Part shown: piece after piece, positions 1 through 37,536 of the stretch
How the letters are laid out: every line of letters starts with the position of its first letter
How positions within the stretch are numbered: position 1 is the stretch's first letter
DNA from: Rhodoferax sp.
GTDB lineage: Bacteria; Pseudomonadota; Gammaproteobacteria; Burkholderiales; Burkholderiaceae_C
NCBI GenBank assembly: GCA_009693325.1
Contig: SHXM01000005.1
Span: forward strand, 1-44,715
Direction of reading: 5' to 3'
DNA: 44,715 nt
Program-made: the position numbers and the translations under genes
Notes under the pieces: model-generated
What the model was told of the DNA's origin: nothing
What the model saw: only the letters and a program-made list of their open reading frames with translations
Databases searched by the model: none

Positions 1-495
1 GGCGTTGCGCCCGTGAGCCAGCGCATCATCCAGCAGTTCGGGCACTACTTTCAAGGTCAGACGCAGGTCGCTGAGCGTGGTTTTCTCAAAGCAGGCGGTG
101 CAGGCCAGCACCGGTACAAACCCATGGCCACAGGGCTTGTGCCAAAGTTGCGCGGGCAGCGCCGTCACGCGGTTGCCCCAGCGTTTCTCCCAGACCCAAA
201 TCATCAGCACATGGTCATACAGCTGGAGTCCGGCCTGCGTCAGGTGGTAGGCATGGCGCTGCGGGCGCTCTTGGTAAATTCTCTTGCGCAGCAGGCCCAG
301 TGAAACCAGCTTGGAGAGCCGCTGTGCCAGCGTCGAGCGGGGAATGTCGAGCCGGGTCTGCCAGTCTTCAAACCGTGTGAGCCCGGTGAAAGAGCCCATG
401 ACCACAGCCACGGTCCAGCGGTCGCCCAGCACCTTCAGGCCATGGTTAAGCGTGCTGCTTTGCAGCGCGTCACGGGTCAGGAGAAGGTCGAGCAT
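1..495 (-). CDS. HxlR-family winged-helix transcriptional regulator (C-terminus runs off window edge)
   Basis: Manual minus-strand translation from ATG at 495: MLDLLLTRDALQSSTLNHGLKVLGDRWTVAVVMGSFTGLTRFEDWQTRLDIPRSTLAQRLSKLVSLGLLRKRIYQERPQRHAYHLTQAGLQLYD..., open to window edge; HxlR wHTH pattern (GDRWT, F.....IP.STL..RL..L...GLL, YxLT..G..L). Confidence 0.85.
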   Translation of the reverse strand, partial: MLDLLLTRDALQSSTLNHGLKVLGDRWTVAVVMGSFTGLTRFEDWQTRLDIPRSTLAQRLSKLVSLGLLRKRIYQERPQRHAYHLTQAGLQLYDHVLMIWVWEKRWGNRVTALPAQLWHKPCGHGFVPVLACTACFEKTTLSDLRLTLKVVPELLDDALAHGRNA

Positions 496-523
496 GTCTT
501 TGTGTGCAACGGCCCTGCCGGGC

Positions 524-1759
524 TCAGGCCGGGCAGGCCACGACAAAGCTCACCACGGTGGCGCATGAGCCGCCGATGTTGAGCGTCTGGACGCGCTGCG
601 CCCCTTCAATCTGGCAGTCACCGGCGCTGCCGGTGACCTGGCGCGCCGCATCAAACAGCATGCGTGTGCCGGTGGCACCCACCGGGTGGCCGCAGCCAAT
701 CAGGCCGCCGCTCATGTTGACGGGGCAGCGGCCGCCAGACTCGATGCTGCCGTCTTCCACCGCCTGCCAGCTTTGGCCGGGCGCGGTCAGCCCCAGATGG
801 TCGATCGCCATGTACTCGGTGGTGGTGAAGCAGTCATGGGTTTCCACGCCTTGCATGGCATCGATCCCCGCCACACCGGCTCGGCGCCAAGCGTCCTCAA
901 TGGTTTGGCGCAGGTGTGGAAAGACATAGCTGGCTTCGGCGCTGCGCTCGAACTTGTCTTTGAGCCGCAGTCCGGCATTGCGGTGGCCCCAGCCGGCGAT
1001 ATGTGGCAGCCGCGCCAGCGTGCTGCCGCGGCGCTGGGCGTGGGCCTGGGCAAAGCTGGCCGAAGCCAACACCACGGCGCAGGCGCCATCCGTGATCTGG
1101 CCGCAATCCTGGCGCCGAGTGCCAGGCTCGATCACCGGGTTGGCCTGGTCGTCATCGGTGAAGCTCAGGGCATCGAAGGCCCACTTGCGGGTTTGGGCCA
1201 ACGGGTTGCGCTTGGCGTGGCTGTAGTTCAGCTCGGCGATCCGGTTCAGGTGTTTGCGGTCCAGCCCATAGCGCCGCTCATACTCCTGGGCCAGCAGGCC
1301 AAAGGCGGCCGGCCACATGAAGGTGCAGTCAATGTCTTCATGGCCCTGCCAGGCAGCGGCGTTCTGGTTTTGGGACGCTACATTGCCGGGCAGGTTTTTG
1401 AACTCCTCAACCCCCAACACCAGCACGCAGTCGTAGCGGCCAGCTTCAATCTCGGCCATGGCGCTGAGCACGCCCAGGGACGACGAGGCACAGGCGCCCT
1501 CATGGCGCATGGCTGGCACGCCCCACAGCTCGGGCACCACTTGCGCCACCATGGCGCCCAAATGCGCCTGCTGGCGCTGCAGCTCGCCAAAGGCATTGCC
1601 CACATGGATGCTTGCGATGGCGGCGGCATCGAGCTCGCAGGCGGCCAGCGCGCCCAGCGTGGCCTCACGCGTGATGTCGGAAATATCCTGGCCCTGGCGG
1701 GACCAAACCTTGGCGAAATCGGTCTGGTAACCGCCTAGCACATACACGGGTTCACGCAT
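524..1759 (-). CDS. thiolase family protein (acetyl-CoA acetyltransferase / SCP2-thiolase-like)
   Basis: 411 aa; EGACASSSLGVLSA active-site Cys region, VETHDCFTTTEYMAIDHLGL, NMSGGLIGCGHPVGATGTRM C-terminal thiolase motif. Confidence 0.9.
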   Translation of the reverse strand: MREPVYVLGGYQTDFAKVWSRQGQDISDITREATLGALAACELDAAAIASIHVGNAFGELQRQQAHLGAMVAQVVPELWGVPAMRHEGACASSSLGVLSAMAEIEAGRYDCVLVLGVEEFKNLPGNVASQNQNAAAWQGHEDIDCTFMWPAAFGLLAQEYERRYGLDRKHLNRIAELNYSHAKRNPLAQTRKWAFDALSFTDDDQANPVIEPGTRRQDCGQITDGACAVVLASASFAQAHAQRRGSTLARLPHIAGWGHRNAGLRLKDKFERSAEASYVFPHLRQTIEDAWRRAGVAGIDAMQGVETHDCFTTTEYMAIDHLGLTAPGQSWQAVEDGSIESGGRCPVNMSGGLIGCGHPVGATGTRMLFDAARQVTGSAGDCQIEGAQRVQTLNIGGSCATVVSFVVACPA

Positions 1760-2744
1760 GTTGGTCTCCTGTGCCCAGCCAGGGCAGTTGTTTGAATCGG
1801 TTCAATGCTTGTTGGTAGTCGCGGGCCAGTTCGTCCACCACCGAGGCCACGCTGGCCACCGATTTGATCGGGCCCAGGCCCTGCCCGGCGGCCCAGACTT
1901 CGGTCCACTTTTTGCCAGCGAACGACTGGTTGCTGTCGTACTGGCGGCCTGGCGCATCGGGCATGTTGTCCGGGTCCAGCCCCTGGGCGCGCAGCGAGGG
2001 TTTGAGCCAGCTGGCGGCGGTGCCGGTGACCCCGGCGCTCACCACCAGGTCGTCGATGCTGCTGTCCACCACCATCTGCTTGTATTCCGCTGGCGCCAGG
2101 CTCTCGGCGGTAGGGATAAAACGGGTGCCCATATAAACCAGGTCGGCACCGCTGGCCACGGCGCCGGCCACACCCCAACCATCGCCGATGCCGCCACCGG
2201 TGATGACATAGCCGTCAAAAAACTCCCGCACGGCGCTAACAAAGGCAAACGGCGACAGGAAGCCGGTATGGCCGCCGGCGCCGGCGCACACGCAGGCCAG
2301 GCCGTCGGCGCCAGCCGCCACAGCCTTCTTGGCCAGTCCGACCGAGATCACATCGGCGATCACCAGGCCGCCATAGCCGTGCACCACCTCGATTGCCGGT
2401 TTCGGGCTACCCAGCGCCGTCACCACCAGTGGCGGCTTGAAGCGGGCCACCAGGGCCAGGTCTTCCGCCAGGCGGGTGTTGGAAGAATGCGTCACCAGGT
2501 TGGCGCACCAGGGGCCGATGGTGGCTACCGGTTGCGCTTCGCGCGCCTGCGCCAGGCCTTCGGTAATCTCGTACATCCAGTCGGCCAGCACCGACACCGG
2601 TCGCGCATTGGGCGTTGGAAAGGCGCCGATGATCCCGGCCTTGCAGGCCGCCAGCACCAGCTCGGGCCCGGAGATCAAAAACATCGGTGCTGCCACCACG
2701 GGCAGGCGCAGGGCAAAGCCGGCAGAGAGATTCAGCAAGCGCAC
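1752..2744 (-). CDS. nitronate monooxygenase / 2-nitropropane dioxygenase-like flavoprotein
   Basis: From GTG start at 2744: VRLLNLSAGFALRLPVVAAPMFLISGPELVLAACKAGIIGAFPTPNARP... GGHTGFLSPFAFV...GGGIGDGWGVAGAVASGADLVYMGTRFIPTAES; TIM-barrel NMO/FabK-like pattern. Start chosen inside the longer ORF 1752..2945. Confidence 0.85.
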   Translation of the reverse strand: MRLLNLSAGFALRLPVVAAPMFLISGPELVLAACKAGIIGAFPTPNARPVSVLADWMYEITEGLAQAREAQPVATIGPWCANLVTHSSNTRLAEDLALVARFKPPLVVTALGSPKPAIEVVHGYGGLVIADVISVGLAKKAVAAGADGLACVCAGAGGHTGFLSPFAFVSAVREFFDGYVITGGGIGDGWGVAGAVASGADLVYMGTRFIPTAESLAPAEYKQMVVDSSIDDLVVSAGVTGTAASWLKPSLRAQGLDPDNMPDAPGRQYDSNQSFAGKKWTEVWAAGQGLGPIKSVASVASVVDELARDYQQALNRFKQLPWLGTGDQHA

Positions 2745-3490
2745 GGTTGTCTTTCTGTAGTTTCCAGGTTCAATTGCCCTGGCTTGGAGAGGATAAAACC
2801 CAACAGCAGCTCGGCCAGTGCCGGTCCCTGCTCGGTGGGCGTTTGGTGGCCTGCACCCTCTACGATTGCCAGTTGGGCGTGGGGAATGAGTTCGCTGAGT
2901 TCCTGCGACAAAGCGAGCGGCGCCACCCGGTCCTCGCGGCCACACACCACCAACACGGGCTGCCTTATTGCGCTGAGCATGGCGCGGTGATCCGAACGCG
3001 CCATGATGGCACGGTTTTGCCGGATGGCGGCCTCAGCACCGACTGAGTGCATCATTTGCCGCATGGTTTGTACACACGCTGCTTCAGCCAGGCTTTTGGG
3101 ATGCAGGCTGAAGGCGATGATGCTCTCCACAGTGCGGGAAAAATTTCGCTCCAGCGCGCTGATAGTTCGCTCGCGAAGCAGCAGCGATTGCGCTGTCTCT
3201 ACAGCCGCCGAGGTGTCAACCAATGCCAGGGCCTGAACCCGCTGACCCTGTTGCGCCAGCATCTCAATTGCCACGTAGCCGCCCATGGAAAACCCGCAAA
3301 CAACCAAGGGCCGGTCTGGTCTCTGGTCAGCGACCAGGTCCCAGGCGCTGTGCGCCATGGCGGCAATGTTGTCCTGTGTCAAAACATCTGCCACCCGAAC
3401 ATCAAGGGCGTTGCCGATCCGGGCGCGCACCGCATCCCAGACCGCTGTGGTGTTGAACATGCCGGGTATCAGCAGGAGCAGGGGCTTCAT
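2732..3490 (-). CDS. alpha/beta hydrolase
   Basis: From ATG at 3490: MKPLLLLIPGMFNTTAVWDAV..., nucleophile elbow VCGFSMGGYVAIEML, C-terminal VEGAGHQTPTEQG; start overlaps the upstream ligase stop by 4 bp. Confidence 0.88.
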   Translation of the reverse strand: MKPLLLLIPGMFNTTAVWDAVRARIGNALDVRVADVLTQDNIAAMAHSAWDLVADQRPDRPLVVCGFSMGGYVAIEMLAQQGQRVQALALVDTSAAVETAQSLLLRERTISALERNFSRTVESIIAFSLHPKSLAEAACVQTMRQMMHSVGAEAAIRQNRAIMARSDHRAMLSAIRQPVLVVCGREDRVAPLALSQELSELIPHAQLAIVEGAGHQTPTEQGPALAELLLGFILSKPGQLNLETTERQPCAC

Positions 3491-5223
3491 ACCTGATCCG
3501 GTGCCAATGCGCGCGCCTGTTGGCGCAGCTCGCGCTTGAGTATTTTGCCCAATGGGTTGCGTGGCAGGGCGGGCAGGGCGAGCAGGTATTCCGGGAGTTT
3601 GAAGGCAGCCACTCGCTGCAGCTTTAAAAACTCGAGAAGCTCGGCCAGGCTGAGCGCCTGTGGCCCTGCGTAGACCACGCAGGCACATAGCTTTTCGCCC
3701 AAAATCCGGTCGGGTACGCCCACCACTGCCACCTCCTTGATGCCGGGACAGCCGGCCAGCAGGCCTTCGACCTCTTCGCTGGAGATGTTCATGCCGCCCC
3801 TGATCACCAGGTCCTTGGAGCGACCGACATGGCGGTAGTACTGCAACTGTTCGCCGCCAATCTCGAACAGGTCGCCGGTGCGGTAAAAACCTTGTTCGTC
3901 AAAGGCGCGGGCGGTCATGTCGGGCGCTCTGAAATAGCCGCTAAAAACGGTCGGCCCCTTGAAGCGTAGTTCACCGGGCTGGCCGGCTTGGGTGATGTCA
4001 GCCCCGCTGGCCAGATCCACCAGCCGGGTCTTGATTTTGCGGGTGGTCGAAACCCGCCAGTCAAAGCCGGCCACGCCGGCGCGCGGAAAATATTGCGCCC
4101 GCAGTGCCGGTTCGGGAATCTCGATATCGCTGCCCGACAGGGCTGCGCCCTCATTGGAGCCGAAGTAGTTGATGATTTGTACGCCGTACTTGTCGGCAAA
4201 ACCCTGCACCATCCAGTCAGACAGCGGCGCCGACCCAGAACCGATGCGGCGCAGGCGCTGAAAATCAATGCCAGCCAAAAGGCTGTCGTCCTGGAGCATC
4301 ATGTTCAAGATGGCCGGTGCCGCCACGGTGTAGTCAATGCGCTCTTCGCGCAACTGCTGCAAAAACACCGGCAGGCTGAATGGGTGGTGCTGCACCACCG
4401 TGCCACCCAACACCAGCCAGGCTGCCAGTGCGGATGACAGGCCCGACATATTCACCAGCGGGAAGGGGTTGAGAAGTCGTGCACCGGGTTCGAGTTGGCC
4501 GGCCTCGATGATGCTGGGGGCGGCGATCAACCACTCGTTGTGGCTACGCGGCACGCCTTTGGGCGCCGCTTCGGTGCCTGAAGTCCAGCAGATGCTGAAC
4601 ACATCATTGGCGGTAACAGCAGCGTCCCGCTCGGCGCGGGCCAGCTGCGCCAGGTGTTCAGGCCTCAGCGCGGCGGGCCAGGCCGACTCAATGTCCAGCA
4701 CACCGTCTGGCAGGTGTGGGCCCCAAGCCAGCACCGAGCGCAGGCTGGGGTGCGCGCTGCTGAGCTGGCGGTACATGGCGGCAGCCTGGTGGGTATGCCC
4801 GGCGCGACCGATCTGGGTGAAGGTGATGGCAGCGGCCGCTTCGGTGATCGACAGAATATGAGCCAACTCGTGTTCACGGTACTGAACTGGCACTGGCGTC
4901 ACCACCAACCCAAGCCGGGCGCAGGCCAAGTACACCAGGTACTGTTCTACGCCGTTGGGCAGGTGCACCACCACGATGTCGTCGCGGCGCAGGCCCTGTT
5001 GCAACAACACCAGGCTGAATCGGTCGGTGTCCTCAGCCAGTTGGCGCCAGCTCAGGCGCTGCTGCGGACCATGGGCGAAATCACTGCGGTTGCAGGCGTC
5101 AACCACAGCCTCGGAATCACCGCGCGTGTTGACCTGCTGCACAAACACATCCCACAGGGTTTGCTGGCCCCACCAGCCTTTCTCGGTGTACTCGGCGATG
5201 GTCTCCGGCTTGACCAGCACCAT
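3487..5223 (-). CDS. class I adenylate-forming enzyme (acyl-CoA / aryl-CoA ligase)
   Basis: From ATG at 5223 (MVLVKPETIAEYTEKGWWGQQTLWDVF...); ICWTSGTEAAPKGVPRSHNE (A3 motif), YFGSNEGAALSG, YRTGDLFEIGG, GRSKDLVIRGGMNISSEEVE, C-terminal NPLGKILKRELRQ. Confidence 0.92.
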   Translation of the reverse strand: MVLVKPETIAEYTEKGWWGQQTLWDVFVQQVNTRGDSEAVVDACNRSDFAHGPQQRLSWRQLAEDTDRFSLVLLQQGLRRDDIVVVHLPNGVEQYLVYLACARLGLVVTPVPVQYREHELAHILSITEAAAAITFTQIGRAGHTHQAAAMYRQLSSAHPSLRSVLAWGPHLPDGVLDIESAWPAALRPEHLAQLARAERDAAVTANDVFSICWTSGTEAAPKGVPRSHNEWLIAAPSIIEAGQLEPGARLLNPFPLVNMSGLSSALAAWLVLGGTVVQHHPFSLPVFLQQLREERIDYTVAAPAILNMMLQDDSLLAGIDFQRLRRIGSGSAPLSDWMVQGFADKYGVQIINYFGSNEGAALSGSDIEIPEPALRAQYFPRAGVAGFDWRVSTTRKIKTRLVDLASGADITQAGQPGELRFKGPTVFSGYFRAPDMTARAFDEQGFYRTGDLFEIGGEQLQYYRHVGRSKDLVIRGGMNISSEEVEGLLAGCPGIKEVAVVGVPDRILGEKLCACVVYAGPQALSLAELLEFLKLQRVAAFKLPEYLLALPALPRNPLGKILKRELRQQARALAPDQV

Positions 5224-5224
5224 C

Positions 5225-6670
5225 TCAGTAGCCGCGCGCCAGGCGTTCGCCGCTGACCCAGGTGGCATGAAAGCCGTTGGGCACGCGTTGCGGCAGGCGG
5301 ATGCGGCAGACCGGGCCCTGGGCCACGTCGTGCGCGTCCAAGATGGTGACCCAGGAGCTCTTGCCTAGGTCGTCCCACATGAAGCCGACCAGGTAACCGT
5401 CGTCTTCGGCCTGCCAGTTGTCTTTAGGTGCGAACGGGGCTTCGCTGAACCACTTGTGCACGCCGGCGTGGTAGGTGCTGCAGCTGTCTTTTTCAAGGTC
5501 ATAGCGGGCGATGCCACAGAAGCGCGGGTCTTCAGCGCGGTTGCTGCGGCCCATCAGCACGCTCCAGGAGTAGCGCGTTTTGTGGCCCTGCATCCAGGAG
5601 TTGATCACCGGGAACTCCTGGTTGATGATGTCGTCAATGACCCTCTCCTTGGTCTGGCCGGTGCGCAGGTTGAAGCGCCACTCGTAGAACATGAAGTCAT
5701 GCTCCAGGTTGGCCAGCATTTTGGGGAAACGCTCCACATCGACCTTGCCACGGATGTCGGTGGGCAGCCGGAACGGGGTGCCTGTCATCACGATCTCGGT
5801 GCCGCCCTGGCCGTCGTCTTCTTCCCAGGCATTTGACGCGTGGTACATATAGGTCGGGTTGGCCTCAAACCAGCGGATTTGGTCCGGTGTGCCGTGGCGC
5901 GGTACCACGCCAAAGCGCGAGGGCAGGGTGTGGTGAAACTTGAGCTTGTGCCGGCCGGCGGCAAATGCGTCCATGTCGTAAAACAGCGGCAGGTCGTGCA
6001 GGATGGTGTAGTTGGGCGTGATCGCCATGTCGTGTGGCAGTCGCGGCCCGGGTAACTGCACCGGCATGAAGGTCTTGAGCTGACCCAGCCGGTCCATCAC
6101 GCCATAGTGCATGTAGGGAGCCTCTTTGCCGTAGGCAAAAAACAGGAACTCGCCGGTGCGCTCATCGACCTTGGAATGGGCCGAGATCGGCAGACCCACC
6201 AGCCGTGGGTCCACCGGCAGCCGGCCCACGGTGGACAGGTCGTTTGGGCGGCACTGGTAGACCGAGCCACCCAGGTACCACATCGAGACCAGGTGGCCCG
6301 CGTAGTACTTGACATCGGTATTCGATGTGTTCTTGACCGGCATATCGGGGCGGTCCTTGCGGGGCGGGTCCTTGATGCCCTGCCACAACGCCGAACCTGC
6401 GCCGAGTTCTTCTTTCAGGCTGTCGGTCATGACCCAGCGGTTTTGGTACTGCGCTTTGCCATTGGCGAAGCGCACTGCGTGCAGCATGCCGTCGCCGTCG
6501 AACCAGTGGTAGCGGCCGGGCGCCTCGAAGCGGCGGTTCGGGCCGTTTCGCACATACATGCCGGTCAGGTCTTTCGGGATTTCGCCCTCGATGTCGGTCA
6601 GGTCTAGCGTCAGCTCTTGCTGCACTGGCGCAAAGCCGCCGCTGAGAACTGGGATGTCGTTGTGGCCCAT
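5225..6670 (-). CDS. carotenoid oxygenase family protein (RPE65 / lignostilbene dioxygenase-like carotenoid cleavage oxygenase)
   Basis: 481 aa: GEIPKDLTGMYVRNGPNRRFE...YHWFDGDGMLHAVRF...AHSKVDERTGEFLFFAYG...HDMAITPNYTILHDLPLFYD...YMYHASNAWEE...GFHATWVSGERLARGY; conserved His-containing motifs typical of the family. Confidence 0.93.
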   Translation of the reverse strand: MGHNDIPVLSGGFAPVQQELTLDLTDIEGEIPKDLTGMYVRNGPNRRFEAPGRYHWFDGDGMLHAVRFANGKAQYQNRWVMTDSLKEELGAGSALWQGIKDPPRKDRPDMPVKNTSNTDVKYYAGHLVSMWYLGGSVYQCRPNDLSTVGRLPVDPRLVGLPISAHSKVDERTGEFLFFAYGKEAPYMHYGVMDRLGQLKTFMPVQLPGPRLPHDMAITPNYTILHDLPLFYDMDAFAAGRHKLKFHHTLPSRFGVVPRHGTPDQIRWFEANPTYMYHASNAWEEDDGQGGTEIVMTGTPFRLPTDIRGKVDVERFPKMLANLEHDFMFYEWRFNLRTGQTKERVIDDIINQEFPVINSWMQGHKTRYSWSVLMGRSNRAEDPRFCGIARYDLEKDSCSTYHAGVHKWFSEAPFAPKDNWQAEDDGYLVGFMWDDLGKSSWVTILDAHDVAQGPVCRIRLPQRVPNGFHATWVSGERLARGY

Positions 6671-6681
6671 GGGGTTTTCCT

Positions 6682-8394
6682 TCAGTTTGGTTCCGTCTTT
6701 TGCTTGGCGCGGGCGGGTCGGCGCGACTGGCTCACGCAGAAGCGGTTGGCCACAAAGGCCAGGTGCGTCAGGGCGGCGTTGCCGGCCGGGTTCAGCCCGG
6801 TGACATGGTAGTCACTGTAGGCGGCTGCAAAATTGAGCGGCATGGCGCCAGTCAGGTTGATGGTGAGTTGAGCGCCAGCTTGCGCGTAGGCGAGTTGTGC
6901 TTGATCGATGTAGGACTCGTCGGTGGAATACACAAAGGCTGTGAGGCCGCCGAACTCACGCACATCGCGGGTGGCCTGGGCCAGCGCATCAGCAGCGTCG
7001 TCGCAGGCGATCACAAAACTGATCGGCCCGAAGCGCTCTTGGCCATACAGATCGCGTTCGGTTTTGCTGACCCGGAGCATCAGCGGCGTGCTGGTGCGGG
7101 CTTGCGGGAACTCGGGGTGCGCATAGGGTTTGGGCGCCAGCAGCACCTCACCGCGCTGCCCGCCTTGGGCCTGCATGTGTTTGAGCAGTGCCAGGGTCTG
7201 TTCTGACTGAACCGCAGCCAAAATCAGGGCTGCCTTGGCGGGTTCGCGCGTCAAGGTCGCAACTGCCGTTGCGAGCCGCTCGCCGACGTCGGCAAAGCCA
7301 ACCAAGCCATCGGGCGTGCGCACCCCGCTTGCCGGGACATAAATGTTTTGCGGGCTGGTGCACATTTGCGCGCTAAACAGGCACAGCGTGGTGGCCAGGC
7401 TGCGCAGCACGGCGTCAAGGTCATCCACCGACTCCAGCAACACCGTATTGCAGCCGGCGGTTTCGGTGAAGCTGAGCGCCGGATGGGCATTGCGCTCGAC
7501 CCATTGGCCGAACTGCACGCTGCCGGTGAAGTCGACCATCGCCGTTTTGGGGTGTTTGACCAGCAGTTTGCCGATCGGCTCGGCGGTGCTGTCAATGGCC
7601 AGAGTCACCAGGTTGGGGTCAAACCCGGCCGCCTGAAGTACCTGTCGGAACACGCATACCGAAATTGCCATCGGCAGCACCGTGGCCGGGTGCGGCTTGA
7701 CGATCACGGCGTTGCCGGTAGCCAGGCTGGCCATCATCGAGGGCCAAGCGTTCCAGGTGGGAAAACTAGCACAGCTAAAGCAGACCGCCACACCGCGCGG
7801 CACCAGCCGGTAGGTTTTTTCCAGCGCGATGTGAGCAGACCCAAACTGGCGCTCCCAGCGGGCCTGGGGAGCCACGGCATGCTGCGCCTGGTGTGCATAG
7901 ACCAGGGTTTCTATCGCCCGGTCAAGCGCATTGACACCCGAGCCGGCATAGGCCATGTTGAAGCTTTGGCCCGTGGTGTGCATGACGGCCTGCGTGATCT
8001 CGAACAAGTGGCCCTGGTAGAGCCGGTCTACCACCTCCATCAGCACACCAATGCGGGTGTCGACGGTCGCGCCAGACCAACTGCCGATGGCCCGCGTAGC
8101 CGCATCAAACAGGGTGTTCGGGTCAGCCTGGGGGTAGACAATGCCCAGCTTTTGACGGGTATACGGGGATACTTCTTCGCCCTGTTCGCCAACCCCGCCG
8201 GGCTGGTCAAGCACAAAGCTTTTGTCCCCTGCGCCGCCGAGGTGGGCGCGGAATGCCGCTAGGCCCAGGGCCTGTGCCGCGGCGGAATCGGGATATTTGG
8301 CGGGCATATCCGGGAAAGGGCTCCAGCATTCCCGCGTCGCGCAGGCGACCTGCGCCCGCTCAAACCGCGCTCGGTGCGTCTCAAAGTGCTTCAT
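6682..8394 (-). CDS. paaN: phenylacetic acid degradation protein PaaN-like aldehyde dehydrogenase
   Basis: From ATG at 8394: MKHFETHRARFERAQVACATRECWSPFPDMPAKYPDSAAAQALGLAAF...; VPRGVAVCFSCASFPTWNAWPSMMASLATGNAVIVKPHP, FTETAGCNTVLLE, SAQMCTSPQNIYVP; resembles the stand-alone PaaN (PaaN2) subfamily. Confidence 0.85.
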   Translation of the reverse strand: MKHFETHRARFERAQVACATRECWSPFPDMPAKYPDSAAAQALGLAAFRAHLGGAGDKSFVLDQPGGVGEQGEEVSPYTRQKLGIVYPQADPNTLFDAATRAIGSWSGATVDTRIGVLMEVVDRLYQGHLFEITQAVMHTTGQSFNMAYAGSGVNALDRAIETLVYAHQAQHAVAPQARWERQFGSAHIALEKTYRLVPRGVAVCFSCASFPTWNAWPSMMASLATGNAVIVKPHPATVLPMAISVCVFRQVLQAAGFDPNLVTLAIDSTAEPIGKLLVKHPKTAMVDFTGSVQFGQWVERNAHPALSFTETAGCNTVLLESVDDLDAVLRSLATTLCLFSAQMCTSPQNIYVPASGVRTPDGLVGFADVGERLATAVATLTREPAKAALILAAVQSEQTLALLKHMQAQGGQRGEVLLAPKPYAHPEFPQARTSTPLMLRVSKTERDLYGQERFGPISFVIACDDAADALAQATRDVREFGGLTAFVYSTDESYIDQAQLAYAQAGAQLTINLTGAMPLNFAAAYSDYHVTGLNPAGNAALTHLAFVANRFCVSQSRRPARAKQKTEPN

Positions 8395-8852
8395 GGCGCG
8401 GGCCTGCGTTGCCACTGGAGTCGGTGGTGTCTGGCGATCTGGGTGCCTGGCAACAGGTCGCTGGCCGACAAGGTCAAGCACCCCGGCACTGACAGATCGA
8501 TGTCCCGTATCTGCTCGGTGCCGACAAAATTGGGATTCAGCGCGTGCGTCACGCTGTGCACCACCCGCTGACCATCGCCCTTGGGTTCAATGCGGTAACG
8601 CCCGGCATATTGAAAAAAGCTCTCGAATGCCGCCAAGCGCTCTGGCACGGGGGCGCTGCGAACACTGGGGGACGACAGCCGGGGGCGCGCTGCTGCGGCG
8701 ATGCAGGCGCTCATGCTGCCATCATGGGTGTAGCAAATCAGGCCCGTGGCGTCAGCGCCGTAGGGCAGGCTGTCCGGCCTGCCATCGCCATATTGGATGG
8801 CCCAACGCACCAAGTGCCAAGTCCCGAGCAGGGGGTTGTCTGTGCCAGTCAA
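8391..8852 (-). CDS. lipocalin-like domain-containing protein
   Basis: MTGTDNPLLGTWHLVRWAIQYGDGRPDSLPYGADATGLICYTHDGSMSACIAAAARPRLSS...YAGRYRIEPKGDGQRVVHSVTHALNPNFVGTEQIRDIDL; lipocalin_5-type LxGTWxL...G.I.YT.DG.M pattern. Confidence 0.85.
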   Translation of the reverse strand: MTGTDNPLLGTWHLVRWAIQYGDGRPDSLPYGADATGLICYTHDGSMSACIAAAARPRLSSPSVRSAPVPERLAAFESFFQYAGRYRIEPKGDGQRVVHSVTHALNPNFVGTEQIRDIDLSVPGCLTLSASDLLPGTQIARHHRLQWQRRPAP

Positions 8853-8991
8853 ATTGTGTCTCGCTTACTTTCTTAACTAGACTAATGTTATCAAGAGACT
8901 CGGGCTTTGGCAAGGCTGAGTGTCGGGAGTGTCGGGAGTAAATGAGTTGTCCGGTTTTTAGCAAGTAATCTGTCCGGTTTGTGGAGGAGCG

Positions 8992-9337: not shown

Positions 9338-9799
9338 TCAGCTTTGCAGCCACAAATCCAACGGCATGCCCCCGGTGCCGATGACGAGTGGCTGCGCATG
9401 CCCAAACTGCTGCAAAAACGCGCTCAGGCCCGACACGTTGCCCACGTTGCGCCCGCTTTTGACTTCCAGCGCCTGCAGCGTTGGGCCATCCCGCAGCACG
9501 TAGTCCACTTCCTTTTGGCCGTTGTTCCAGTAATGGATGATGGGGTGGCGGCGGCTGTGCGTGAGGTGCCGGGCCAGTAGTACGGTGCCTACGGCGCTTT
9601 CTGCCAGTCGGCCCCACACATCGGGGCGTAATTGCGCGGCTTTCAGGCCCAAGCCTTGCGCGACCCAGTGGCAGCCCATCAGGGCATTGTTGAACACCTG
9701 CAGCTTGGGACTGGATGCCCGCTGGCGCACCACTTGGCCCATGTATTTGGGCAGGCCGCAGGCCATACCCAACTTAGAGCGCAGTATGCAAGTCGTCAT
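9338..9799 (-). pseudogene. C-terminal fragment of DUF4143 / AAA+ ATPase family protein
   Basis: YMGQVVRQRASSPKLQVFNNALM...WGRLAESAVGTVLLAR...IHYWNNGQKEVDYVLRDGPTLQALEVKSGR = DUF4143 C-terminal pattern; no P-loop ATPase part upstream. Confidence 0.7.
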
Positions 9800-18843: not shown

Positions 18844-18861
18844 TTGTCGTTCAAACGACAA
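18844..18861. promoter_or_regulatory. perfect palindrome in divergent promoter region, candidate Crp/Fnr operator
   Basis: TTGTCGTT-CA-AACGACAA between the divergent starts at 18785 (-) and 18949 (+); flanked by two copies of GGCGTCAAA. Confidence 0.7.
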
Positions 18862-18948
18862 CATGGCGTCAAACAGATGCCTATCATTGGGCGTATTCAC
18901 GCTGGCAGTGCCACGCAGCGCGCTTGCACAAAAAGCCAAGGTTACGGG

Positions 18949-20895
18949 ATGCAGACCACTTTCCCTCAATTGTTATTTCAGCATGCCGTCCAGCGCCCGG
19001 GCGATGCGGCCATGCGCGAAAAAGAATACGGTATTTGGCAGGCCCTGAGCTGGGCCGATCTCGCCACCATGGTGTCGCACCTGGCCTGCGGCCTGCACCA
19101 AGCCGGTCTGCGCCGGGGGCAGCACATGGTGGTGGTGGGAGCCAACCGACCGCGCCTGTACGCAGCCATGCTGGCCGCGCAGTCCCTGGGTGCGGTGCCG
19201 ATCCCGCTGTACCAGGACGCAGCCGCTGCAGAGTGCGTGTTCCCAATCAACAACGCCGACGTGGCCTTCGCCTTTGCCGAGGACCAAGAGCAGGTCGACA
19301 AACTGCTGGAGGCACGTGCCCAGTGCCCAGGCCTGGCGCACATTTATTTTGATGACCCCCGCGGATTACGGAATTACGACGAGCCGGGTCTGGCCTCGCT
19401 GGATGAATTGTTGGCGGCCGGCCAGGCCTTCGCCGCGCTGCACCCGGATTTCGTCAAGAGTGAGGTGGCGCTGTCGCAGCCCCACGATGTGGCAGCCATG
19501 TTCTTCACCTCGGGCACCACTGGCAACCCCAAGGGCGTGGTGCACACCCACAACTCTTTGCTCGACCGGGCCCGTGCTGGCGCCGAGTTCGACCATTTAA
19601 CGCACCGCGAAGAGGTGCTGGCCTATTTGCCGCCAGCCTGGATCGGGCAGAACATCTTCAGCTATGCGCAGTGGCTGTCCTGTGGCTATGTGGTCAACTG
19701 CCCTGAATCGCCAGCCACGGTGACGATCGACCTCAAGGAAGTCGGGCCCACCTATTACTTTGCCCCGCCCAGGGTGTTTGAAGGCCTGTTGACCAGCGTG
19801 ATGATTCGCATGGAAGACGCCGGCACCCTCAAGCGCCATTTGTTTCATGCCTGCATGGCCTTGGCCAAGCGGGTTGGCCCGGCCTTGATGGACGGCGCGC
19901 CAGTCGGCTTGACCGACCGGCTCTTGTATGCGCTGGGCAATCTGCTGGTCTACGGCCCGCTGCGCAACACCCTGGGCTTGAGCCGGGTGCGCGTGGGCTA
20001 CACCGCAGGCGAGGCCATAGGCCCAGACCTGTTCACCTTCTACCGCTCGATTGGCATCAACCTCAAGCAACTCTACGGCTCGACCGAGACCGCCGTGTTT
20101 GTCTGCCTGCAGCCCGACCATGAAGCCCGCGCCGATACCGTGGGCGTGCCGATTGCCGGGGTTGAGATCAAGGTGTCTGACAACGGCGAAATCCTGGTCA
20201 AGTCACCCGGGCTGCTCAAGGAGTATTTCAAGAACCCGCAGGCCACGGCCGAGGTGCTCACCGCCGATGGCTGGTACCACACCAGCGACGCCGGTTTTCT
20301 GGATGCGCACGGCCACCTGAAGATCATCGACCGCGTGAAAGACGTCGGTCGCATTCGCGGCGGCGCCAACGACGGCGCCATCTTCGCGCCCAAATACGTG
20401 GAGAACAAGCTCAAGTTTTTTCCGCACATCAAGGAGGTGGTAGCCTACGGAGACGGTCGCGAGAAGGTCTGCGTCATGATCAACATCGACTTTGACGCAG
20501 TGGGCAATTGGGCCGAACGCCGCAACCTGCCCTACGCCGGCTACACCGACCTGGCGCAAAAGCCCGAGGTCTACCAGCTGATCAAAGACTGCGTGGAAAA
20601 AGTCAATGCCGACCTCAGCGCCGACACCCTGCTGGCTGGCAGCCAGGTCAGCCGCTTTCTGGTGCTGCACAAGGAACTCGATGCCGACGACGGCGAGCTG
20701 ACCCGCACCAACAAGGTCCGTCGCGGCTTTATTGCCGACAAATACCTGCCACTGGTCGACGCCTTGTACGGCGGCGCCAGCAGCCAGTTCATCACCACCC
20801 AAGTCAAGTTTGAGGATGGGCGCACCGGCAGCGTTAGCGCCACCCTGCGCATCGATGACGCCAAAACCTTCGCCCCGGTAAAGGCAGCTGCATGA
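18949..20895 (+). CDS. AMP-dependent acyl-CoA synthetase (long-chain fatty-acid-CoA ligase-like)
   Basis: From ATG at 18949: MQTTFPQLLFQHAVQRPGDAAMREKEYGIWQALSWADLA; AAMFFTSGTTGNPKGVVHTHNSL; QLYGSTETAVFV; GWYHTSDAGFLDAHGHLKIIDRVKD. Confidence 0.94.
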   Translation: MQTTFPQLLFQHAVQRPGDAAMREKEYGIWQALSWADLATMVSHLACGLHQAGLRRGQHMVVVGANRPRLYAAMLAAQSLGAVPIPLYQDAAAAECVFPINNADVAFAFAEDQEQVDKLLEARAQCPGLAHIYFDDPRGLRNYDEPGLASLDELLAAGQAFAALHPDFVKSEVALSQPHDVAAMFFTSGTTGNPKGVVHTHNSLLDRARAGAEFDHLTHREEVLAYLPPAWIGQNIFSYAQWLSCGYVVNCPESPATVTIDLKEVGPTYYFAPPRVFEGLLTSVMIRMEDAGTLKRHLFHACMALAKRVGPALMDGAPVGLTDRLLYALGNLLVYGPLRNTLGLSRVRVGYTAGEAIGPDLFTFYRSIGINLKQLYGSTETAVFVCLQPDHEARADTVGVPIAGVEIKVSDNGEILVKSPGLLKEYFKNPQATAEVLTADGWYHTSDAGFLDAHGHLKIIDRVKDVGRIRGGANDGAIFAPKYVENKLKFFPHIKEVVAYGDGREKVCVMINIDFDAVGNWAERRNLPYAGYTDLAQKPEVYQLIKDCVEKVNADLSADTLLAGSQVSRFLVLHKELDADDGELTRTNKVRRGFIADKYLPLVDALYGGASSQFITTQVKFEDGRTGSVSATLRIDDAKTFAPVKAAA

Positions 20896-21677
20896 GTGCC
20901 AAAAAGACCGGCGATGTGGTGCTCGATGCCAAGAACATCTCCCTGAGTTTTGGTGGCGTCAAGGCGCTGACCGACATCTCCTTTGATGTGCGTGAACACG
21001 AGGTACGCGCCATCATCGGGCCCAACGGTGCTGGCAAGAGCTCCATGCTCAATTGCATCAATGGGGTGTACACGCCGCAGCAGGGCACCATCAGCTTCAT
21101 GGGTCAGACCTTTGACCATATGGACAGCCATCAGGTGGCGGTGATGGGCATTGCCCGCACCTTCCAGAATCTGGCGCTGTTCAAGGGCATGAGCGTGATC
21201 GACAACATCATGACTGGGCGCAACCTGTGCATCAAGAGCAATCTATTTTGGCAAGCGCTGCGCATCGGACCGGCCCAACGCGAGGAAGAGCGACACCGCG
21301 AGTTTGTGGAGCACATCATTGATTTTTTAGAAATCCAGGCTTACCGCAAAACGCCGGTGGGCCAATTGCCCTACGGCTTGCAAAAAAGGGTCGACCTGGG
21401 CCGCGCGTTGGCCATGGAGCCCCGGGTGTTGCTGCTTGATGAGCCCATGGCCGGCATGAACGTGGAAGAAAAACAGGACATGTGCCGCTTTGTGCTCGAC
21501 GTGAACCAAGAGTACGGCACCACAGTGGTGCTGATCGAGCACGACATGGGGGTGGTGATGGACATCTCTGACCGGGTGGTGGTGCTCGACTACGGAAAAA
21601 AAATTGGTGACGGCACATCGGATGAAGTACGCAACAGCGAGGAAGTGATCAGCGCCTATCTGGGCACCAGCCACTAA
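20892..21677 (+). CDS. livG: branched-chain amino acid-type ABC transporter ATP-binding protein LivG
   Basis: NISLSFGGVKALTDISFDVREHEVRAIIGPNGAGKSSMLNCINGVYTPQQG; signature QLPYGLQKRVDLGRALAMEPRVLLLDEPMAGMN. Confidence 0.93.
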   Translation: MSAKKTGDVVLDAKNISLSFGGVKALTDISFDVREHEVRAIIGPNGAGKSSMLNCINGVYTPQQGTISFMGQTFDHMDSHQVAVMGIARTFQNLALFKGMSVIDNIMTGRNLCIKSNLFWQALRIGPAQREEERHREFVEHIIDFLEIQAYRKTPVGQLPYGLQKRVDLGRALAMEPRVLLLDEPMAGMNVEEKQDMCRFVLDVNQEYGTTVVLIEHDMGVVMDISDRVVVLDYGKKIGDGTSDEVRNSEEVISAYLGTSH

Positions 21678-21682
21678 AGCAC

Positions 21683-22612
21683 ATGGCATTCTTTCTTGAA
21701 ACTTTGTTGGGCGGCCTGATGGCCGGCATGCTGTATTCACTCGTGGCGCTGGGCTTTGTGCTGATTTACAAGGCCTCGGGCGTGTTCAATTTTGCGCAGG
21801 GCGCCATGGTGCTGTTTGCGGCGCTGGCCATGGCCCGCTTTGCCGAATGGATTCCAGCCTGGACCGGCCTGAGCAGCCCGGTCTTGGCCAATGTGCTGGC
21901 CTTTATGGTGGCGGGGGCGATCATGTTTGTGGTGGCCTGGCTGATCGAGCGTCTGGCCTTACGCCATCTGGTCAACCAGGAGGGCACCACCCTGCTGATG
22001 GCCACCCTGGGCATCAGCTACTTTCTGGACGGCATTGGCCAGACCCTGTTTGGCAGCACCATTTACAAGATTGACATCGGCATGCCCAAAGACCCGATCT
22101 TTGTACTCGACACGGTGTTCCCCGGCGGTATTTTGATCAACAAGGAAGACCTGTATGCAGCCCTGATCGCGGCCCTGCTGGTGACGGGACTCAGCCTTTT
22201 CTTCCAAAAAACCGCCACCGGCCGTGCCCTGCGCGCGGTGGCCGACGACCATCAGGCGGCGCAAAGCATCGGTATTCCGCTCAACCGCATTTGGGTGATC
22301 GTCTGGTGCGTGGCCGGGGTGGTGGCGCTGGTGGCCGGCATGATCTGGGGCAGCAAGCTGGGCGTGCAGTTTTCCCTGACCACCGTGGCGCTGCGTGCCC
22401 TGCCGGTGGTGATTCTCGGCGGTCTGACCTCGGTGCCCGGCGCCATCATCGGCGGACTGATCATCGGCGTGGGCGAGAAACTCTCCGAGGTGTTCCTGGG
22501 CCCCTATGTGGGCGGCGGCATCGAGATCTGGTTCGCCTACGTGCTGGCCCTGGCGTTTTTGATGTTTCGCCCCCAGGGACTGTTTGGTGAAAAAATTATT
22601 GACCGAGTATGA
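21683..22612 (+). CDS. livH: branched-chain amino acid-type ABC transporter permease LivH
   Basis: 309 aa; LETLLGGLMAGMLYSLVALGFVLIYKASGVFNFAQGAMVLFAAL; SIGIPLNRIWVIVWCVAG. Confidence 0.94.
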   Translation: MAFFLETLLGGLMAGMLYSLVALGFVLIYKASGVFNFAQGAMVLFAALAMARFAEWIPAWTGLSSPVLANVLAFMVAGAIMFVVAWLIERLALRHLVNQEGTTLLMATLGISYFLDGIGQTLFGSTIYKIDIGMPKDPIFVLDTVFPGGILINKEDLYAALIAALLVTGLSLFFQKTATGRALRAVADDHQAAQSIGIPLNRIWVIVWCVAGVVALVAGMIWGSKLGVQFSLTTVALRALPVVILGGLTSVPGAIIGGLIIGVGEKLSEVFLGPYVGGGIEIWFAYVLALAFLMFRPQGLFGEKIIDRV

Positions 22613-22615
22613 AAC

Positions 22616-22726
22616 CTTGCGGGACAGACCAAGATTTGCGCAGCGAATTTGCTCTGTCCCCAACTAAGCAGACGAACTTGCGGGACAGACCAAGATTTGC
22701 GCAGCGAATTTGCTCTGTCCCCAACT
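22616..22726. repeat. doublet of about 50-bp direct repeats, each a hairpin (REP-like)
   Basis: CTTGCGGGACAGACCAAGATTTGCGCAGCGAATTTGCTCTGTCCCCAACT at 22616-22665 and 22677-22726 (identical, period 61); each carries the stem GGGACAGA...TCTGTCCC. Confidence 0.85.
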
Positions 22727-22754
22727 GAATAGATGGAAGAAAAGAAAGATTTCG

Positions 22755-23831
22755 ATGTTTTACAGAGAAAACGGCCAGTTCAGAACCACTTACCGGGCCG
22801 ACCAGCAAATATTTCCGATCAGCCAAGACCGCTGGGCGATTTTTGCCCTGCTGGTGGTCGCGGTTGTTGGTGTGCCCTTGTTCGCCGATGAATATATGTT
22901 GCGCGCAATTTTCATCCCCTTCCTGATTTTGTCCCTGGCTGCTTTGGGCGTGAATATTTTGGTGGGCTATTGCGGCCAGATTTCACTTGGTTCTGGCGCC
23001 TTCATGGCTGTTGGTGCCTACGCTGCGTACAACATGTATGTGCGCATTGATGGCATGCCAGTCATCCTGGCCTTGCTGACTGGCGGCTTTTTCGCGACTT
23101 TGGTGGGAATCTTGTTTGGCATTCCCAGTTTGCGTGTGAAAGGCCTTTATTTGGCACTGGCCACGCTTGCCGCACAGTTTTTTTGCGACTGGGCGTTTTT
23201 GCGCGTGAATTGGTTTACCAACAACAGCACCTCGGGTTCGGTGGCTGTCGCCGAATTCAATGTCGCAGGCTGGGCGATTACCTCGCCCGCGAGCCGGTAT
23301 TTGTTTTGTCTGGGATTTGTGTTGGTATTCGGCGTGTTGGCCAAAAACCTCGTGCGAGGTGCCATAGGGCGTGAATGGATGGCGATTCGAGACATGGACG
23401 TGGCCGCCGCGGTGATCGGCATCCGTCCGATGTATGCCAAGCTCAGTGCTTTCGCCGTAAGTTCATTCATTGTGGGCGTCGCTGGAGGGCTGTGGGGCTT
23501 TGTCCACCTCGGCGCCTGGGAGCCAGCAGCGTTTTCGATAGATCGATCCTTTCAAATGCTCTTCATGGTCATCATCGGCGGGCTGGGCTCTATCATGGGC
23601 AGCTTTTTTGGTGCCGCCTTCATCGTCGCGCTGCCAATTTTTCTGAATCAATTTTTGCCTCTCTTGGGTGTGCCTTTTGGCCTCACTGTGTCTACCGCTT
23701 TTCTCTCCCATGCCGAATCGATGGCCTTTGGCGCCTTGATTGTCTGGTTTTTGATCGTCGAGCCGCACGGCCTGGCGAAACTGTGGAGCGTGGGTAAGCA
23801 AAAAATGCGGCTTTGGCCTTTCCCCCATTGA
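22755..23831 (+). CDS. livM: branched-chain amino acid-type ABC transporter permease LivM
   Basis: From ATG at 22755: IPFLILSLAALGVNILVGYCGQISLGSGAFMAVGAYAAYNM; FAVSSFIVGVAGGLWGF; MLFMVIIGGLGSIMGSFFGAAFI. Confidence 0.93.
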   Translation: MFYRENGQFRTTYRADQQIFPISQDRWAIFALLVVAVVGVPLFADEYMLRAIFIPFLILSLAALGVNILVGYCGQISLGSGAFMAVGAYAAYNMYVRIDGMPVILALLTGGFFATLVGILFGIPSLRVKGLYLALATLAAQFFCDWAFLRVNWFTNNSTSGSVAVAEFNVAGWAITSPASRYLFCLGFVLVFGVLAKNLVRGAIGREWMAIRDMDVAAAVIGIRPMYAKLSAFAVSSFIVGVAGGLWGFVHLGAWEPAAFSIDRSFQMLFMVIIGGLGSIMGSFFGAAFIVALPIFLNQFLPLLGVPFGLTVSTAFLSHAESMAFGALIVWFLIVEPHGLAKLWSVGKQKMRLWPFPH

Positions 23832-23902
23832 TTAGGCCAGGCAAGTGGTTGTTTTGTTCGTTAACCAAAGGTGCGTCCGCACCGCTATTTGAGGAGACTG
23901 TC

Positions 23903-25219
23903 ATGAAAATACGTAACATCGCGATGGCCGGGTTGCTGGCTGCCACTGGCGCCACAGCCCTGGCGCAGGCTAAGGAGCAGTTTTTCCCGGTTCTAACCGG
24001 TCGAACTGGCCCGGTTGCGCCCAATGCTGCCCCCTGGGCAAATGGACATAACGACTACATGAAGCTGGTCAACGCGCGGGGCGGCATCAATGGTGTCAAG
24101 ACTTTGCTGGAGGAGTGTGAAACCGCTTACGACACCGCCCGCGGTGTGGAGTGTTACGAGCGCCTCAAGGGCAAACACGGTGGCGCCACGGTGTTCCAGC
24201 CCTTGTCCACTGGCATCACATTTGCGCTGACCGAAAAGATCCCCGGCGACAAAATTCCCATTATTACCTCGGGCTATGGCCGAAGTGATTCAGCGGATGG
24301 CGGCATTTTCAAGTGGAACTTCCCCCTGATTGGGCACTACTGGGTAGCTGGGGATGCCGTGCTCAAGCACATTGGCAACAAGGTCGGCGGCATGGAAAAC
24401 CTCAAAGGAAAGAAAATTGGCGTCGGCTATCACGACAGCGCTTTTGGCAAAGAGGTCCTGCCAATTTTGCAGGAGCGGGCAGCGCAATATGGTTTCTCTT
24501 TGCTGTTGTTGCCCATTGCGCCTCCCGGCGTTGAGCAAAAAGCTACATGGCTCCAAGTGCGCCAGCAGCAACCTGACTACGTGATTTTGCAGACCTGGGG
24601 TGTGATGACGGCGGCTTCCGTGAAAGAGGCGCAGGCGGTGGGCTACCCTAGAGAAAAAATGTTTGGTACCTGGTGGTCGGGCGCTGAGCCTGATTTGAAG
24701 GATGTTGGGCAGGGTGCCAAGGGCTACAACGCGGTCATGATGCAGCATGGTGCCGAGCCGCAGTCGGCCGTGGTCAAGGAAATTTTGGAGAAGGTGCATG
24801 CCAAGGGGCAGGGAACCGGGGCCAAGGAGGAGGTTGGTGAGGTGCTCTACATGCGCGGTGTAATCGGAGCCATGTTGGCAACGGAAGGTGTTCGTGCAGC
24901 CCAGGAGCGTTTTGGAAAGGGCAAGGTTGTCACGGGTGAGCAGGCCCGCTGGGGCTATGAAAACCTCAACCTGACCCAGGCCAAACTCGACACCCTGGGT
25001 TTCAAGGGCGTGATGCGACCGGTTTCCACCAACTGCGTTGACCACATGGGTGCGGCCTGGGCGCGGGTGCACACCTGGGACGGGGCCAAGTTTGTCTGGA
25101 GTTCCGATTGGCTGCAGGCCGATGAACAAGTGATCAGGCCCTTGGTCAGGAATTCGGCAGACAAATACGCCGCCGAGAAAAAACTGACACGCCGCACCCC
25201 GGCGGACTGCCAGTCCTGA
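23903..25219 (+). CDS. ABC transporter substrate-binding protein (branched-chain amino acid/aromatic-type)
   Basis: RBS gaggag; signal peptide MKIRNIAMAGLLAATGATALAQA; periplasmic-binding fold type I pattern; located between livM and livF. Confidence 0.9.
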   Translation: MKIRNIAMAGLLAATGATALAQAKEQFFPVLTGRTGPVAPNAAPWANGHNDYMKLVNARGGINGVKTLLEECETAYDTARGVECYERLKGKHGGATVFQPLSTGITFALTEKIPGDKIPIITSGYGRSDSADGGIFKWNFPLIGHYWVAGDAVLKHIGNKVGGMENLKGKKIGVGYHDSAFGKEVLPILQERAAQYGFSLLLLPIAPPGVEQKATWLQVRQQQPDYVILQTWGVMTAASVKEAQAVGYPREKMFGTWWSGAEPDLKDVGQGAKGYNAVMMQHGAEPQSAVVKEILEKVHAKGQGTGAKEEVGEVLYMRGVIGAMLATEGVRAAQERFGKGKVVTGEQARWGYENLNLTQAKLDTLGFKGVMRPVSTNCVDHMGAAWARVHTWDGAKFVWSSDWLQADEQVIRPLVRNSADKYAAEKKLTRRTPADCQS

Positions 25220-25227
25220 TGACCGAT

Positions 25228-25260
25228 CTGTCAGTCCGGGCAGCTTGCCCGGACTGACAG
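25228..25260. repeat. perfect 15-bp stem hairpin
   Basis: CTGTCAGTCCGGGCA-GCT-TGCCCGGACTGACAG. Confidence 0.85.
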
Positions 25261-25261
25261 T

Positions 25262-25297
25262 CCAACCGGCAGCGCTGCGCGCAACGCTGCCGGTTGG
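25262..25297. repeat. perfect 13-bp stem hairpin adjacent to the previous one
   Basis: CCAACCGGCAGCG-CTGCGCGCAA-CGCTGCCGGTTGG. Confidence 0.85.
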
Positions 25298-25313
25298 CAA
25301 ACAGCAAGGATTT

Positions 25314-26123: not shown

Positions 26124-26134
26124 GGAAGACGCCC

Positions 26135-27391: not shown

Positions 27392-27525
27392 GTGAGATGC
27401 AAGTTGGAAGGCTTGACTTGCGATAAGCTCGCGTCAATCCGTCGTCGGCCTAGGTAGTTTCCGCATTGCGCGCAAGGCCTGGCCCCGCTACCCTTTGCTG
27501 TGTTTGTTTAAATTGGAGACTTGAA

Positions 27526-32545: not shown

Positions 32546-32576
32546 TTGACAGTAAATAGTTTAGGTCTAAACTATT
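32546..32576 (+). promoter_or_regulatory. putative -35 (TTGACA) with overlapping perfect palindrome, candidate MarR operator
   Basis: TTGACA at 32546-32551; AATAGTTTAG-GT-CTAAACTATT at 32555-32576; start codon at 32582. Confidence 0.75.
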
Positions 32577-32581
32577 GCCTC

Positions 32582-36259: not shown

Positions 36260-36260
36260 G

Positions 36261-37514: not shown

Positions 37515-37536
37515 GCCCCTTTCCACGAGGATTTGC

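Follow-up and report, generated by a model that had tools for sequence, protein, structure and literature searches.

A carotenoid-oxygenase gene cluster in Rhodoferax sp. and other bacteria as a candidate coenzyme A-dependent catabolic system

The carotenoid cleavage dioxygenase (CCD) superfamily includes plant CCD1, a carotenoid 9,10-dioxygenase (Osmanthus fragrans, PDB 9m6z/9m3e/7vud), the Synechocystis ACO (2biw), and the lignostilbene dioxygenases (LSDs; LsdA of TMY1009, LSD4 of SYK-6, and the P. brassicacearum LSD, 5v2d). Here, we describe a gene cluster built around CCDs of another clade. One half of it lies in the window, by which we mean the whole 44,715-nucleotide stretch analyzed (bases 1-44,715 of contig C53, SHXM01000005.1) from Rhodoferax sp., a freshwater-type bacterium. 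The cluster comprises about 17 genes and is very probably catabolic, a use that LSDs can likewise serve. We regard it as a putative CCD-initiated, coenzyme A (CoA)-dependent catabolic system with a distinct CCD clade.

The window enzyme, hereafter CCD1 without further qualifier, belongs to the same superfamily as plant CCD1 and has the same fold, and both enzymes have Ile at the position of LSD Tyr101. Plant CCD1, however, falls on a separate tree branch, keeps a second-shell Glu that the window clade has lost, and is a plant enzyme without the gene context of the window. LSDs resemble the window CCDs in fold, in their four iron histidines, and in Phe59, but their Tyr101, Lys134, and Glu135 are all replaced in the window clade. 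We know of no CoA ligase/thiolase cluster of the window kind for LSDs. ACO shares its fold, metal site, and LALW stretch with CCD1; it differs in having Trp149-Glu150 in LALWEGG; at this place, the window clade reads W-Y-[LQRM], with an extra residue and without the Glu. The phenylacetate (Paa) and steroid C/D-ring (Ipd/FadA6) pathways are alike in logic, proceeding through a ligase, oxygenation, CoA-linked redox steps, and a thiolase. In contrast to these, the window oxygenase is a CCD and the cluster has no IpdAB-like genes; nor are there paaABCE oxygenase genes or their like among the 17 cluster genes, which therefore do not qualify as a phenylacetate operon.

An earlier note on this DNA did not recognize its gene set as a described pathway. 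In the open literature, we also found no publication with a matching gene combination and no described bacterial route in which a CCD and CoA chemistry together degrade carotenoids or their fragments. Two candidates were set aside. The Variovorax isoflavone ifc cluster came into question since Variovorax sp. E3 carries the gene set, but its account mentions neither carotenoid nor nitronate, thiolase, or HxlR (PMC11069340), and the M. massiliense island MmGI-1, with one mention of carotenoid, is a general beta-oxidation/mce island (PMC4263727).

Gene content, conservation, and distribution

The window genes run in an unbroken minus-strand row of eight from LIPO to HxlR, as confirmed from the sequence. 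The earlier note had read this row as an operon. The eight consecutive genes do exist, but the HxlR gene is truncated, since window base 1 is the end of contig C53 (genome 2.77 Mb, 190 contigs, 89% complete). Nine more co-oriented genes follow the tandem HxlR gene on a second contig of the same genome, C131, so the cluster has about 17 genes rather than eight. Its features, in order of transcription, are as follows.

8885..8913, minus: promoter-like site TTGCCA-17-TAACAT with extended -10, 33 bp 5' of LIPO; consensus match only
8391..8852, minus: LIPO, lipocalin-like protein, 153 aa, TTG start (Pfam Lipocalin_5, E 9e-29)
6682..8394, minus: ALDH, PaaN-type aldehyde dehydrogenase, 570 aa (NCBIfam PaaN_2, 593.6 bits, cut-off 578.75)
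5225..6670, minus: CCD1, carotenoid-oxygenase-family dioxygenase, 481 aa (Pfam RPE65, E 1.3e-118, 397 bits vs 27)
3487..5223, minus: LIG, AMP-forming acyl-CoA ligase, 578 aa (AMP-binding and AMP-binding_C domains)
2732..3490, minus: ABH, alpha/beta hydrolase, 252 aa (Abhydrolase families; nearest PcaD/BioH, below cut-offs)
1752..2744, minus: NMO, nitronate-monooxygenase/FabK-like flavoprotein, 330 aa, GTG start (Pfam NMO, E 4e-22)
524..1759, minus: THIO1, SCP2-type thiolase, 411 aa (PRK06289, 591.5 bits, cut-off 375)
1..495, minus: HxlR, first (N-terminal) half of a tandem HxlR-HxlR regulator, truncated where the contig ends (HxlR, E 7.5e-16)
C131, same direction: CCD2, second carotenoid-oxygenase gene, about 42% identical to CCD1
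C131, after CCD2, same direction: DUF1295 protein, weak steroid-reductase match
C131, after the DUF1295 gene, same direction: short-chain dehydrogenase/reductase (SDR)
C131, after the SDR gene, same direction: THIO2, second thiolase (nearest PRK08242, below its cut-off)
C131, after THIO2, same direction: four LIV-type ABC-importer genes (LivHMGF), two permeases and two ATPases
C131, after the LIV genes, same direction: second acyl-CoA ligase, FadD11-like

The join between the contigs is one that we infer from their overlap, and synteny supports it. The ends of C53 and C131 overlap by 192 bp at 97.4% identity, and the reading frame of the window HxlR runs on into a second HxlR domain on C131 (L139:10783-10163). 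Strain variation where the assembly broke could account for the five mismatches in the overlap. In two related loci (L024 and L004), the order THIO1-dHxlR-CCD2-DUF1295-SDR-THIO2, with dHxlR the tandem regulator, is found on a single contig. The full series from LIPO to the last ligase is collinear on one contig of genome G083, where the cluster has four CCD genes. The tight packing described earlier is borne out: the junctions from LIPO to HxlR measure -4, +11, +1, -4, -13, -8, and +28 bp. This spacing of -13 to +28 bp and the common direction are consistent with a single transcription unit. The promoter-like site was found once against 0.2 expected from shuffles and is a match to consensus only.

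We compared 80 CCD loci, drawn as nearest relatives from species genomes, 72 of which hold at least 9 kb. At least one partner gene (LIG, THIO1, THIO2, NMO, ALDH, or HxlR) lies near the CCD gene in 62 of these 72 longer loci, a plain count made without a matched background set and not a statistical test. The neighborhood, whose conservation had been proposed as a check, is kept across genera and phyla, with looser versions in other phyla. Outside Comamonadaceae-type genomes, Rhodobacterales have CCD2-CCD-LIPO-ALDH-NMO-THIO1-THIO2-dHxlR-Liv (L028, L029), Chloroflexota NMO-CCD-LIG-LIPO-THIO1-THIO2 (L036), and Bacillota THIO1 and NMO-CCD-LIG-THIO2 (L040). The order in Nocardia is dHxlR-CCD-luciferase-like flavoprotein-THIO2-LIG-THIO1 (L065), and Paraglaciecola has a TonB receptor gene with NMO-LIG-CCD-THIO1-THIO2 (L079). 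Variovorax sp. E3 also carries the cluster (L007), and plasmid-borne versions occur in Cupriavidus (C. necator C39, L134) and Sphingopyxis, the latter including a Rieske oxygenase. Genes for a TctC binding protein, a porin, a major facilitator superfamily (MFS) transporter, or a TonB receptor are also found near the CCD gene in relatives. Being conserved across genera and phyla, the arrangement is beyond chance. The earlier view of a catabolic-type cluster, with a carotenoid-oxygenase-family enzyme at its center and ALDH, CoA ligases, and thiolases around it, is supported. Two outcomes that the earlier note had named as refuting it did not arise: the neighborhood is conserved in relatives, and the open literature yielded no operon of identical composition. 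The note had missed the truncated dual HxlR, CCD2, the importer genes, a further thiolase and ligase, and the change in the second shell. The HxlR-HxlR fusion, of about 316 aa, accompanies the CCD gene in 31 of the 72 longer loci (e.g., L004, L024, L045, and L065), Actinomycetota included.

Among 201 genomes of the window's own family, orthologues of NMO (68-100% identity; next best 48%) and of THIO1 (74-100%; next best 58%) share one set of 14, and all 14 have a CCD of the window kind. Of these 14 genomes, 11 also have ALDH orthologues (63-100%; next best 45%), which are absent from the rest of the 201. Since the genes are linked, finding them together does not amount to independent observations. 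The set is absent from the sole other genome of the same genus among the 201, and four further genomes (G016, G036, G046, and G108) have a CCD match without the rest of the set. This distribution is that of an accessory trait moving between lineages, probably spread horizontally. The fastest-evolving enzyme of the set is ABH, with 41-69% identity where CCD is 82-97%. Some family genomes have five or six CCD genes, mostly within one region (L118, L117, and L116; G148 and G187). In two loci (L014:3037-9797 and L016:8616-13109), CCD1-type genes (71-73% identical) stand directly before LIV-type importer genes, joined in L014 by a ligase gene; neither locus has LIG, NMO, or THIO1 near the CCD1-type gene. 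These loci are perhaps a split or reduced form of the cluster.

A separate oxygenase clade with an altered second shell

The fold model of CCD1 (predicted local distance difference test, pLDDT, 87) has CCDs as all of its closest solved folds, and thus the seven-bladed beta-propeller fold of the superfamily. The nearest is plant CCD1 (TM 0.85, 31% identity), which is also the best sequence match (E 1.6e-69). The iron ligands His165, His213, His277, and His468 are present in every aligned row. CCD1 does not have all three second-shell acids, and its place in the superfamily rests on the fold and the histidines.

CCD1, CCD2, and relatives from several phyla form one clade (SH-aLRT 98) in a 62-sequence tree, which was quick, made without bootstraps, and includes two reference rows built from alignment fragments with a gap. 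Plant CCD1/NCED, LsdA, the P. brassicacearum LSD, and a cyanobacterial homologue all fall outside the clade, in a comparison of the kind that the earlier note had called for. CCD1 and CCD2 lie in separate supported subclades and are thus old paralogues, not the product of a recent duplication.

Phe59, Tyr101, and Lys134 of LSDs contact the guaiacyl/4-hydroxyphenyl ring of the substrate, and seven metal-site residues were found to be highly conserved in all CCDs characterized to that date (PMC8191317). The window clade retains the equivalent of Phe59. The Tyr101 position is Ile in CCD1, Leu in CCD2, and I, L, or V in nearly all members, and the Lys134 position is Tyr in 106 of 114 aligned proteins (Trp for the window protein by phmmer alignment). 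The second-shell Glu (LSD4 Glu135, ACO Glu150) is replaced by L, Q, R, or M together with one inserted residue in 110 of the 114, in a comparison that covered five reference enzymes among the characterized CCDs. The other two second-shell acidic residues are retained, their likely equivalents being Glu352 and Glu410. The Glu is kept by L083 and L101, which are outside the clade, and by L075, the sole exception inside it. The clade is a natural test of whether oxygenase chemistry needs this residue. A third CCD of the same genome (contig C178, L140:8843-10513) is nearest to Synechocystis ACO, retains the second-shell Glu, and falls outside the clade; it has no cluster partner genes beside it.

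CCD1 falls short of the cut-off of each of the three curated functional CCD models. The NCBIfam LSD models score 211.5 bits (cut-off 800) and 174.3 bits (cut-off 650), and the top-scoring model, NF052295 (8'-apo-carotenoid 13,14-cleaving dioxygenase), scores 252 bits against 675. Residues, curated models, and the tree together speak against an LSD or isoeugenol-oxygenase identity for CCD1, which we set aside.

Proposed pathway, substrate, and alternatives

The LIPO model is a confident beta-barrel (pLDDT 94.8) whose nearest solved folds are lipocalins at TM ~0.5, which indicates the general lipocalin fold only; the protein may carry a lipophilic ligand. ALDH narrowly passes the PaaN_2 equivalog cut-off, and its nearest solved chain, 5uju, is an uncharacterized NAD-dependent ALDH. 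Candidate catalytic Cys and Glu motifs are present in ALDH, as are TSGTEAAPKG and NPLGK in LIG, which reaches no curated equivalog. ABH has the motifs expected of its family, and THIO1 has candidate Cys, His, and Cys motifs. The nearest solved chains to NMO are flavin mononucleotide (FMN) enoyl-acyl carrier protein reductases, and its GAGGHTG motif is invariant. We take the motifs of ALDH, LIG, ABH, NMO, and THIO1 to be catalytic from knowledge of their families.

What the sequences show directly is gene content and order, conservation, linked occurrence, the clade, and the active-site residues; from these, we infer the reactions, their order, their regulation, and the substrate. The LIV-type ABC system would import an exogenous compound with C=C bonds, which the lipocalin-like LIPO may hold. 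CCD1 and CCD2 would cut C=C bonds to give aldehydes or ketones, the PaaN-type ALDH would turn the aldehyde into an acid, and the two AMP-forming ligases would form CoA thioesters. Redox steps might be catalyzed by the NMO/FabK-like flavoprotein, the SDR, and the DUF1295 protein, and the two thiolases would then yield acetyl- or propionyl-CoA. The tandem HxlR protein may regulate the operon, responding to the substrate or to a reactive aldehyde. The step of IpdC on CoA-linked steroid intermediates, assayed with FMN (PMC5380842), offers a precedent for flavoprotein steps on CoA esters such as that proposed for NMO.

The ligases, thiolases, ALDH, and ABC importer together argue for uptake and breakdown rather than synthesis. 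Several CCD genes in one cluster suggest that a chain with multiple double bonds is cleaved repeatedly; a stilbene or phenylpropene offers a single cleavable bond, and a polyene is therefore favored. Judging from the TctC and LIV components, the substrate may be soluble and perhaps acidic, a description that would suit a short apocarotenoid or an abscisic acid (ABA)-like acid better than an intact carotenoid. Our preferred reading, which we hold at about even confidence, is a CoA-dependent catabolic cluster for an exogenous C=C compound, likeliest a polyene or alicyclic isoprenoid (an apocarotenoid or norisoprenoid, perhaps an acid). In its favor, sequence and fold searches place the CCDs nearest plant CCD1, and the LSD residues that bind 4-hydroxystilbenes are missing. 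That the substrate is a polyene or alicyclic isoprenoid of some kind, a view shared with the terpenoid-acid alternative below, has perhaps slightly better than an even chance. More tentatively, and with somewhat more doubt than belief, we propose that a CoA-dependent pathway shared across phyla degrades polyene isoprenoids completely, be they apocarotenoids, norisoprenoids, or an ABA-like acid, and that the CCD clade lacking the second-shell Glu starts it.

Several observations weigh against the preferred reading. The likeness to plant CCD1, in sequence and fold, amounts to only ~31% identity, and the ligase and thiolase families are not substrate-specific. There is no enoyl-CoA hydratase within the examined part of the cluster, and a full beta-oxidation cycle would therefore need genes elsewhere. 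Furthermore, some CCD orthologues (L014, L016, L019, L021, and L022) have no ligase, NMO, or thiolase nearby.

It is possible, if doubtful, that the substrate is another alicyclic or terpenoid acid (ABA-like, resin, or cyclic terpenoid) and that the CCDs are peripheral to its degradation, for instance by shortening a single unsaturated side chain. The TctC and LIV importers near the CCD gene also suggest a soluble acid here, and the weak steroid-reductase match of the DUF1295 protein and the Rieske oxygenase of the Sphingopyxis version point the same way. Bacterial shortening of ABA gives the C13 ketone dehydrovomifoliol, and the enzymes responsible have yet to be named (PMC7996341). The open literature examined names no genes for ABA catabolism, which is a lead only; the link is through chemistry alone.

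A different order of steps, modeled on phenylacetate degradation, is rather unlikely. In that order, LIG would first make a CoA ester, a CCD would cut the CoA-bound C=C, and ALDH would oxidize the CoA-linked semialdehyde before thiolysis. The PaaN family is named for a ring-opening step after CoA ligation. That ALDH passes the PaaN_2 cut-off favors this order, as does the sequence of roles (ligase, oxygenase, ALDH, and thiolase), which is that of the Paa pathway. However, the score is just above the cut-off, and a free-acid route accounts for the genes equally well. To our knowledge, characterized CCDs so far act on lipophilic, CoA-free substrates. Because this order is compatible with more than one substrate, the confidences of the explanations overlap.

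The earlier note had offered a lignin-derived stilbene or phenylpropene as one of its candidate substrates. Catabolism of such compounds or of dilignols, with the CCD as a lignostilbene/isoeugenol-type dioxygenase releasing aromatic aldehydes that are then oxidized and degraded, now appears improbable, as does a lignin-type substrate in general. LSDs are members of the same superfamily and act in dimer pathways of sphingomonads (PMC12607616, PMC12997858), their folds are close matches to CCD1, and ALDH would be a natural next step. But Tyr101 and Lys134 are replaced, the LSD models fall far below cut-off (211 vs 800; 174 vs 650), the tree sets the clade apart, and an aromatic aldehyde needs neither two thiolases nor two ligases.

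It is very improbable that the cluster serves the turnover of the cell's own carotenoids or the synthesis of apocarotenoids instead of degrading an imported compound. CCDs elsewhere make retinal and apocarotenoid signals (PMC5133782), and the genome holds two SQS_PSY-family genes. Against this, importer genes accompanied by two ligases and two thiolases suggest uptake and breakdown, and a set found in 14 of the 201 family genomes resembles an accessory trait. As a weaker point, the genome gave no rhodopsin match in a search whose control also gave none. The SQS_PSY-family genes stand in tandem (G000:C107:2523-4152) and are perhaps HpnC/HpnD of hopanoid synthesis, an assignment not separated from phytoene synthase.

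Carotenoids are produced in very large amounts. If the preferred reading of isoprenoid catabolism is true, the cluster would supply named genes for testing how carotenoids and apocarotenoids are turned over in lakes, in soils, and at sea. It might also provide candidate genes for unassigned steps, such as the shortening of the ABA side chain.

Other loci in the window

Upstream of the cluster, a DUF4143 fragment (9338-9799, minus) covers domain positions 63-160 of 160, the C-terminal part, and is probably what remains of an ATPase gene. Apart from the CCD cluster, a second importer-plus-ligase set lies at 18844-28509 (plus) and encodes a FadD11-like ligase, LIV-type permeases with a periplasmic binding protein, a partial AMP-binding protein, and a TctC protein. 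Finally, the region at 32546-39168 (plus) encodes a bifunctional salicylyl-CoA 5-hydroxylase/oxidoreductase (PRK08255, 1322.6 bits vs 1078), an enoyl-CoA hydratase (PRK08258), and acyl-CoA dehydrogenase-like and benzoate-CoA-ligase-like proteins. The set resembles an aerobic, CoA-dependent route for degrading a 2-substituted benzoate.

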